64,000 nucleotides of DNA from Halothermothrix sp. GTDB lineage: Bacteria; Bacillota; Halanaerobiia; DY22613. Both the position numbers and the translations under genes were made by a program. The notes beneath the pieces were generated by a model, which was given only the letters and a program-made list of their open reading frames with translations, did not search any database and had not been told where the DNA came from. Positions 4,053 through 6,138 of the stretch are shown here, in pieces; position 1 is the first letter of the stretch; each line of letters starts with the position of its first letter. The stretch covers positions 310,001-374,000 of the forward strand of contig JAENYK010000002.1 of assembly GCA_016841825.1 (NCBI GenBank), written 5' to 3'.

Positions 4053-4262
4053 ATGATGTTTATCAAAATTTATTTAATGATTGCTTTACCTGTGGTCGCT
4101 GCAGTGTTTCTGGTATATGTAAATTTAAAAGTAAAAAAGAGAATTCAAAATCTAAAGAATAAAGAATCTTATCATTTACAAGAGGATAGTATAGATAAAG
4201 GAAAATCTCCAGATTTAAGTTCAAAGAGACATAGGGTTAAAGGTGGTGGAAACTCTGTGTAA
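4053..4262 (+). CDS. Small single-pass membrane protein
   Basis: A 69-residue protein preceded by AAAGGAGG 11 bases before ATG 4053. Residues 3-23 (FIKIYLMIALPVVAAVFLVY) form one hydrophobic segment, followed by a basic and strongly hydrophilic tail (KVKKRIQNLKNK, later KRHRVKGGG). That predicts an N-terminal anchor with a cytoplasmic or surface-facing charged tail. It starts 26 bases after the glycosyltransferase stop, so it is probably co-transcribed. I do not recognise a family. Confidence 0.6.
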   Translation: MMFIKIYLMIALPVVAAVFLVYVNLKVKKRIQNLKNKESYHLQEDSIDKGKSPDLSSKRHRVKGGGNSV

Positions 4263-4455: not shown

Positions 4456-4484
4456 TTGAAATAGAGAATTAAATTGTGTATAAT
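4456..4484 (+). promoter_or_regulatory. Sigma-A-type promoter of the TPR/peptide unit
   Basis: TTGAAA at 4456-4461, a 17-base spacer, then a perfect TATAAT at 4479-4484. The longest open frame of the next gene starts inside this -10 region, which argues for a start further downstream. Confidence 0.75.
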
Positions 4485-4517
4485 AACAGTAGACAAAAAT
4501 GTTGGTGGAAGGGGGAA

Positions 4518-5693
4518 ATGTTACTAATGAGTAGTAAATTAGGCTGTAATCTAGAGATTATTGATCAGGAATTTAACCTTCTGCTGGAAACATGTAGAGA
4601 GGTTTTAAATACAAAACATGATTATATAAGTGCCTATGATCATGCTGTACAGGCTAAGTATCTGGCAAAGAGATTTTTGGAAAATGAGATATATGTGGTT
4701 GAAAGTGAGATGCTGCGGGGACTGGCATATCTGGGGATTGATCGCATGGTCGGTCATGACATATTAAATAAACTATATTATGAGAGTCAGAAGAAAATTA
4801 AAGGCAATGCCAATTTGGAGATTAGACTAAAGAAGACTTTTGGTATTGCCAAAAGGTATATCGGGGAATATGATGAGGCGATGACTCTTTTTTGTGAAGT
4901 TCTTGGACTAGTTCAAAAAGAGGTAGAGAAGGCAGAAGCTAGAGATGACCCTCAAGAAGAACTTTTGCGGTGGATTATATATACTCTGCAGCAGATGGGA
5001 ATATCACTGGTTTTTAAAAGTAGGCAAAAGCATTATCCAATGATGGTAAGACGAACTGAGCGGCGGATCAAACAGATGAATTTTAATGATCTTGACCATT
5101 TCCGGATGGAACTCAAGAAGATTCAAAGTGTAAGTGAAGTTAATAATGAACTAATAGAAGCTCGAAAATATATTAATGAGGCTTTACGGATGGCACAACA
5201 ATGTGGATTAAAGGATATGGAGGTTGCCTGTTTACATAATTTTGCATGTATTTTAGTAGAATCGGAAGAGTATGTTGAAGCTTTAAGAATTCTTGAGGAG
5301 ATTCAAGATGAACCATACATTAGAGAAAATTTACTGGGGAATGTCTTAAATGAGGTAGCTATTGCTTACATTAATTTAGGGGAATTAGAAGCAGGAGCTG
5401 ATCTTTTACATAATGCCTGGATGTGGTTGTCTAGACGGAATGACTTAGATGAGTTATGCCGAAACTCTTATGGAACTGCTCTCTATTATTACAAAAAAGG
5501 TAACCTGGACATGGCTTATGCTTTTGCTGAATTAACTTATAATAAAGATTTTGATATCTGCAGTCTGAAGTTACTTTATGAGATAACTTTCCTTAAATAC
5601 GTCCAGGCTCGAAGGCTTGGAAATGAATCAGAATATGTATTTTACCGGTGTGAGTATGAGAAATATAGAGAACAAATAGAAAGGAGGGCTTGA
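4518..5693 (+). CDS. TPR-type helical protein, Rap-like in size
   Basis: An all-helical protein of about 391 residues without a signal peptide, membrane segment or DNA-binding domain. Several 34-residue helix pairs look like tetratricopeptide repeats, for example AKRYIGEYDEAMTLFCEVL, HNFACILVESEEYVEALRIL, EVAIAYINLGELEAGADLL and YGTALYYYKKGNLDMAYAF. Size and layout (helical N-terminus, then TPRs, no HTH) resemble Rap-type members of the RRNPP peptide-receptor families; that link is inference. The start is ATG 4518 or ATG 4527, since the G-rich GGAAGGGGG at 4507-4515 sits just ahead; the frame itself is open from 4476. A 38-codon repeat-peptide gene starts 3 bases after the stop and the pair ends in a terminator, so the two form a self-contained operon. 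Confidence 0.8.
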   Translation: MLLMSSKLGCNLEIIDQEFNLLLETCREVLNTKHDYISAYDHAVQAKYLAKRFLENEIYVVESEMLRGLAYLGIDRMVGHDILNKLYYESQKKIKGNANLEIRLKKTFGIAKRYIGEYDEAMTLFCEVLGLVQKEVEKAEARDDPQEELLRWIIYTLQQMGISLVFKSRQKHYPMMVRRTERRIKQMNFNDLDHFRMELKKIQSVSEVNNELIEARKYINEALRMAQQCGLKDMEVACLHNFACILVESEEYVEALRILEEIQDEPYIRENLLGNVLNEVAIAYINLGELEAGADLLHNAWMWLSRRNDLDELCRNSYGTALYYYKKGNLDMAYAFAELTYNKDFDICSLKLLYEITFLKYVQARRLGNESEYVFYRCEYEKYREQIERRA

Positions 5694-5696
5694 GAT

Positions 5697-5813
5697 ATGT
5701 TAAATATTAAATGTGGTCCTGGCTTACCTCTTGAGGATGCTTATGGCCCTGGTTTGCCACCTGAGGATGCTTGTGCTGTAGGTCCTGGATTGCCACTCGA
5801 AGATATCTTATAA
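5697..5813 (+). CDS. Triple-repeat small peptide (GPGLPxED)
   Basis: A 38-residue ORF starting at ATG 5697, with a near-perfect AAAGGAGGG site 8 bases before it and only 3 bases after the TPR gene stop. After MLNIKC, the peptide is three copies of a nine-residue unit GPGLP(L/P)ED(A/I) at residues 7-15, 17-25 and 29-37, separated by Y and CAV. The three DNA copies differ mostly at synonymous positions (GGT/GGC, TTA/TTG, CCT/CCA, GAG/GAA), so the peptide sequence seems to be conserved by selection. It has two cysteines (6 and 26), an acidic net charge and no signal peptide. It may be a multi-copy signalling peptide read by the TPR protein, or a multi-core precursor of a modified peptide. I recognise no family. 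Confidence 0.75.
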   Translation: MLNIKCGPGLPLEDAYGPGLPPEDACAVGPGLPLEDIL

Positions 5814-5848
5814 GATTGAGTGTGTAACGTAAAACAAAGGAATTTTTC

Positions 5849-5885
5849 AAAAAATGACCTGAGAGTTGCTCCAGGTCATTTTTTG
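5849..5885 (+). terminator. Intrinsic terminator after the repeat-peptide gene
   Basis: AAAATGACCTG pairs with CAGGTCATTTT around a 10-base loop (AGAGTTGCTC), followed by a T-run. It closes the TPR/peptide transcription unit. Confidence 0.85.
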
Positions 5886-6138
5886 ATGCCTGTAAATATG
5901 TATTTTGCAGATTTTTATACAATTTAGGGGAAAAAGATGCTAATAGCCAATTTGTTCTTATAAATTCCTAGAGATTTTTATTGATTGATGATAGATTTCC
6001 TACAGGAATCGACTAAAAGTTCTTTTAAGGTTGACTAAAATGGTAGTTTGATGTTAATATTAGGTTAACACAAAAATATTTAGTATAGCGAAGGAATTAT
6101 TCAAAGATGGATAACCAAGAAGAGAGGAGAGATTAGTT
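5886..6138 (+). other. Leader region of the gamma-glutamyltransferase gene
   Basis: About 250 AT-rich bases with no convincing ORF. A possible promoter is the TTAACA / TAGTATAG area near 6063-6090, but the fit is weak. A 9-codon ORF (6107-6136) overlaps the ggt ribosome binding site; I see no reason to call it a leader peptide. Confidence 0.3.

Follow-up and report, generated by a model that had tools for sequence, protein, structure and literature searches.

The locus at 4456-5886 of the window, by which we mean the whole 64,000-nucleotide stretch of DNA analyzed here, raises a simple question: do a TPR gene and the 38-codon ORF behind it form a peptide–receptor signaling pair, and how could such a pair work when its peptide has no leader? 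The window belongs to a 5.08-Mb assembly of 43 contigs (G000). Read from the sequence, the locus is a compact unit of a near-consensus promoter, the TPR gene, the 38-codon ORF with a good ribosome site, and a strong hairpin terminator, which confirms the layout given by a first-pass annotation. Its features are as follows.

4456..4484, + strand: sigma-70-type promoter, TTGAAA-N17-TATAAT, with 11 of 12 consensus matches
4527..5693, + strand: 388-aa TPR receptor gene without an HTH, predicted fold resembling Rap, PF13424 match, four paralogues
5682..5687, + strand: Shine-Dalgarno sequence AGGAGG of the peptide ORF, within the last codons of the TPR gene (ERRA)
5697..5813, + strand: leaderless peptide gene, 38 aa, MLNIKCGPGLPLEDAYGPGLPPEDACAVGPGLPLEDIL, recognized by its ORF, its silent-site bias and a position common to the paralogues' peptide genes
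5715..5738, + strand: core unit 1, GPGLPLED, from repeat comparison
5745..5768, + strand: core unit 2, GPGLPPED, from repeat comparison
5781..5804, + strand: core unit 3, GPGLPLED, from repeat comparison
5847..5886, no strand assigned: intrinsic terminator hairpin flanked on either side by T-rich sequence, RNA fold z = -4.5

The promoter ranks top among 9 promoter-like matches in 2 kb, against a chance expectation of 7.3, and TTGAAA-N17-TATAAT also stands at the equivalent position before a paralogue on contig C11. The TPR frame is open from 4518, although the start at 4527 is better spaced, and it ends with the stop at 5693. The peptide ATG lies 3 bases past this stop, with AGGAGG 9 bases ahead of it. 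At about 5847-5886, the hairpin with its U tract was equalled in stability by none of 200 shuffles (z = -4.5); a simple terminator scan did not pick it up, probably owing to the scan's loop-length rule. Around the unit lie genes of glycosyltransferase, gamma-glutamyltranspeptidase-like, membrane-protein and two-component type, the latter two classes assigned by eye. A 69-aa single-span membrane protein that matches no family above cut-off is encoded at 4053-4262, in the gap separating the unit from the glycosyltransferase gene.

The three copies of GPGLP(L/P)ED reported earlier, with mainly silent DNA differences, are borne out by counting: against their consensus, the eight shared codons of the three repeats carry 7 silent differences and 1 replacement. 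Random placement gives a mean of 2.1 silent changes and reaches 7 in 0.015% of trials (p = 0.00015, an approximate value since the null is a simple one without transition bias). Elsewhere in the genome, GPGLPxED with up to 2 mismatches is coded only as one chance-level match. No signal peptide can be read in the 38-aa peptide, whose N terminus is without a hydrophobic stretch, and an unseen leader is excluded because the frame ahead of the ATG runs straight into the TPR stop codon. The precursor had thus been correctly called leaderless, a state that a second pair, described below, keeps across two genera. A family search found no database family for the ORF, and searches of genomes, viruses and plasmids found no relative of the exact window pair that would show the ORF to be maintained.

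What kind of protein is the putative receptor? It matches PF13424 at 31.6 bits (cut-off 30.1), and searches of Pfam, NCBIfam, PHROGs and PDB sequences with the receptors of this family returned generic TPR matches only, with no model matching an HTH, Rgg or other effector domain. The family tables show RapH_N (PF18801) in none of the members, while RapLS20, used as a positive control, scores 49.2 bits for this domain. Since RapH_N is absent here and found in a true Rap, the receptor is, by its domain content, not a Rap proper; the profile match of the family to RapLS20 is weak, short and confined to 65 columns. Structure prediction can add to this picture. An AlphaFold (AF2) model of the window receptor built from six sequences is all helical (pLDDT 89.6, pTM 0.84), and Foldseek against the PDB places RapJ with CSF peptide first (E 3.8e-7, TM 0.44), followed by Rap of phi3T, with RapF, RapLS20 and NprR lower. 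A RapLS20 chain reaches TM 0.58, and eukaryotic LGN is interleaved among these matches, scoring nearly as well. TPR folds widely resemble one another. For a receptor of the second family, introduced below, the model has a pLDDT of 93 and LGN is the best Foldseek match, with RapH at rank 40. Because this model matches LGN better than Rap, the fold alone is no proof of Rap ancestry; the predicted structures speak more for a TPR superhelix that binds peptides than for descent from Rap itself.

Sister loci in the same genome bear on whether the two genes belong together. Four further TPR paralogues in G000 are 42-54% identical to the window receptor along their entire length, and immediately 3' of each of them lies a small ORF that starts with positive charge followed by a hydrophobic stretch, a Sec-like leader as called by hydropathy. 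The first of these peptides, MRKFIVVFLSLLMMIFASLVVLA-GPTAPIEV..., found behind the paralogue C22a, holds four copies of GPTAPIE with seven silent and zero replacement differences (p 5e-5). A second ends in ...GPWVPVTDD, the third locus has two tandem peptide genes, one terminating in CDPWVPIGVD and the other in CGPWVPVGDD, and the fourth peptide reads ...VIA-SPTIPITDPW.... All five share a core pattern of a residue, Pro, two residues, Pro and a hydrophobic residue (xPxxP), which GPGLPLED fits. The window peptide has two Cys residues, and a Cys immediately precedes its first core, an arrangement also seen in the tandem sister genes. Purine-rich ERRG/ERRV/ERRA codons at the receptor end, which carry the ribosome site of the peptide, are likewise kept in 5/5 G000 members. 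The peptide ORFs behind the paralogues, together with the Rap-like predicted fold, lend support to the earlier proposal of a peptide–receptor module, and a search akin to the one it had suggested, for TPR genes followed by short repeat ORFs, returned GPTAPIEV x4 and xPxxP-core peptides behind the G000 paralogues. Locus L015 (contig C22), in which near-identical tandem peptide genes behind one receptor differ in their final residues (DPWVPIGVD vs GPWVPVGDD), may reflect a duplication that is recent and has begun to diverge; farther downstream there is a tnpA/tnpB-like insertion.

Beyond these five, G000 encodes a second TPR family of ~300-350 aa, more diverged, with a profile match to the first family at a probability of 98.5%. 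The two families account for 44 ORFs, which correspond to 43 receptor genes and include fragments. By our own count, 25 of the ~38 second-family receptor genes have a neighboring peptide gene: 15 leader-bearing and downstream under a strict filter, 3 further downstream ones, 1 leaderless, and 6 upstream or overlapping. Together with the 5 first-family pairs, this gives a total of ~30 peptide–receptor pairs per 43 receptor genes. That the window pair is one of so many had been overlooked by the first-pass annotation. Counting the strict downstream class only, a leader-bearing small ORF directly follows 19/43 receptor genes vs 1/48 ordinary genes, the control being the 48 genes of the window (Fisher p = 6e-7). 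The small ORF behind the L048 receptor, which does not look leader-like although the filter let it through, was excluded from the count. In many of the leader-bearing peptides, the segment past the likely signal-peptidase site begins with xP, for instance A-DPHGEPDTG, A-DPNGHPGTQ, A-YPDPEPGTT, S-GPFPYPDGP and A-GPIQKPVG. Two further loci in G000 deserve mention. In L107 (242-5378, contig C14, reverse-complement coordinates), five consecutive receptor genes share the stretch with one peptide gene, of YPDPEPG core, behind the first. In L037 (2643-2993), a 116-aa leader-bearing precursor upstream of its receptor has six DPQNGGDEPF-like units with an excess of silent changes.

A related genome, G001, allows these pairs to be followed across genera. 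It has 17 such receptor ORFs, 12 of them with a peptide, and in reciprocal best receptors of G000 and G001 the cores are related and the rest of the peptide divergent. For instance, GPIQKPV occurring twice corresponds to about seven GPIEQP-like units, GPNWPPDD to GPTWPGDS, DPVWDDEPD to NPNWADEPD, and GPGWDDSD to GPGLDED. The GPIEQP-like units, which are degenerating, sit in a 104-aa precursor at L097 2045-2359 of G001, where the G000 orthologue has two. In the case of one orthologous receptor pair (64% identical; C30 in G000), a bare leaderless ORF stands behind the receptor in both genera, encoding the 12-13-residue peptides MRRNGPGWDDSDL and MRRITGPGLDED; both ORFs start with GTG, have a ribosome site and are followed by an inverted repeat. 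Since these bare ORFs are kept behind orthologous receptors in two genera, leaderless pairs persist in the lineage, and their presence in both receptor families suggests, as far as sequence comparison goes, more than one origin. An 18-aa leaderless ORF, MDGVKSGPIWPRLIDLLN, also lies behind a receptor at L093 1885-1941 of G001; at the G000 orthologue L040 (receptor 67% identical), no counterpart is recognizable. The first-pass annotation would have taken homologous TPR genes without a peptide ORF as a refutation. In this family, each intact paralogous TPR gene is directly followed by one, the sole exception being in G001, where an IS1182-like element (named by eye; L019 4232-5998) sits at the 3' end of the C22a-orthologous receptor and replaces its last residues, and where no peptide gene was found. 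An RluA-type gene, also named by eye, follows the C22a-type receptor locus in both genomes. Across 59 class genomes, 398 phylum genomes, genome contigs, viral contigs and plasmids, the first family was found in G000 and one relative only, that is, in one other genome among the 398 phylum genomes.

The host itself is of interest. G000 encodes Omp85/BamA, a family that no monoderm control genome contains and that is present in E. coli, Caulobacter, Synechococcus, Thermus, Deinobacterium, Bacteroides and Thermotoga, as well as Spo0A, found among the control genomes in Bacillus subtilis only. With both encoded, the gene content suggests a diderm relative of the Firmicutes, perhaps a spore former; Halanaerobiia would suit this description, as a tentative guess.

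From the observed gene order, ORFs, repeat conservation, sister pairs and predicted fold, we conclude that the window unit is probably a Rap/Phr-like (RRNPP-type) peptide–receptor pair with a leaderless, multi-core ligand. The following mechanism for its translation, processing, export, binding and target can be proposed. The TPR protein would be a cytoplasmic receptor and, because it has no DNA-binding domain, would likely act on another protein. Rap proteins act by protein binding on response regulators (Spo0F, ComA), and by analogy the window receptor probably works through binding as well. The 38-residue ORF, translated from the ribosome site in the last codons of the receptor, would supply the ligand, GPGLP(L/P)ED in three copies. 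As the window peptide has no Sec leader, unlike its four closest sisters, the ligand would either exit through a different exporter, in the manner of leaderless communication peptides, or act within the producing cell. Peptidases would cut the 38-mer into single cores, and once a core is bound, the receptor would change its hold on the target. What is least certain is whether the 38-aa peptide still works and whether it leaves the cell.

On the second point, a variant of this reading keeps the peptide inside the cell, where it would regulate its own receptor, for instance as a translation-coupled timer or brake. We regard this as somewhat unlikely: the missing leader and the translation initiation site inside the receptor gene are in its favor, but the sister systems have export leaders, and leaderless Streptococcus peptides are still exported and re-imported (PMC10518010). 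On the first point, the ORF could be a decaying precursor, its signal-peptide segment deleted and its cores the relics of a secreted pheromone, leaving a receptor that hears other peptides or none. All four sister peptides do have leaders, the silent differences between repeats could be older than the loss of the leader, and receptors without a peptide of their own are known in Rap systems (PMC9765709). However, nothing is disrupted in the ribosome site, the spacing, the ORF, the terminator or the receptor, and another receptor pair retains its bare peptide in two genera; we regard decay as unlikely. A RiPP-type modified multi-core precursor with the TPR protein as its partner, an option also raised earlier, could account for the repeated cores and the two Cys residues, but we rejected it as highly improbable, as no modification-enzyme or peptidase-transporter gene was recognized among the neighbors inspected and the four closest paralogous peptides are Sec-led. 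Finally, that the 38-codon ORF arose by chance and is no gene is scarcely credible, for although it is short and without a database family, it combines a triple repeat with silent-site bias and a strong ribosome site, and peptide genes occupy the equivalent place behind 4/4 paralogues.

Returning to the Rap/Phr-like pair as the preferred reading, a broader and more tentative proposal may be made. Possibly, a diderm and probably spore-forming lineage evolved its own RRNPP-like network of ~43 receptor and 30 peptide genes, in which ligands without a leader had several origins, one of these ligands being multi-core and working without Sec export, either intracellularly or through an unknown exporter. 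With Sec-led and leaderless peptides beside closely related receptors in one cell, two questions become open to experiment: by what route leaderless signals travel, and why a single precursor should hold several copies of a signal.

Descriptions of RRNPP-type signaling come from Bacilli, Lactobacillales and some Clostridia, and our literature search found no report of RRNPP-like systems in diderm bacteria, including Halanaerobiales and other diderm Firmicutes, and no description of this receptor family. Compared with Rap/Phr of Bacillus (RRNPPA), the window unit is similar in its ~390-aa TPR receptor without an HTH, a small, coupled peptide gene directly downstream, and multiple cores per precursor; the predicted receptor fold resembles Rap, with LGN scoring nearly as well. 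The unit differs in a receptor without RapH_N, a peptide without a leader, xPxxP cores, and a host that looks diderm. Set against the five published RRNPP criteria (PMC10075063), it shows four, namely receptor length (388 aa; range 250-500), a TPR HMM match, propeptide length (38 aa; range 10-100) and direct adjacency (3 bases). The fifth, a Sec signal, is missing from the window peptide, and stated exceptions to this criterion include SHP and PrgQ (PMC10075063).

The first-pass annotation knew of no described system with this repeat, and missed that multi-copy precursors and leaderless TPR-receptor ligands have each been described. For the combination of the two, no described case was found in the literature. 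The tandem-duplicated propeptides Phr3T and Phr105 hold several pheromone copies (PMC11343458), and Phr precursors can have up to 6 (PMC9765709). Like the window precursor, Phr3T and Phr105 carry several slightly varying copies, but theirs are secreted via a leader. The leaderless Streptococcus peptides (LCP/SIP) beside RopB resemble the window pair as bare signal peptides adjoining a TPR receptor, with MRRNGPGWDDSDL and MRRITGPGLDED closest in look. However, RopB is a DNA-binding Rgg-type protein with an N-terminal HTH, whereas the receptors here have no recognizable HTH, and SIP, the founding LCP, consists of one 8-aa core (PMC10518010) where the window peptide has three. The Alo systems of Paenibacillus likewise place many peptide–receptor pairs in one genome, >25 being called a record (PMC7425212), which the ~30 pairs in G000 would match or exceed. 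AloR is drawn with an HTH, however, and the receptors here, in which none was found, belong to another lineage and accompany other cores. As far as the literature found goes, what is new is the receptor family, cores of xPxxP pattern, a precursor that is at once leaderless and multi-core, and the likely diderm host.
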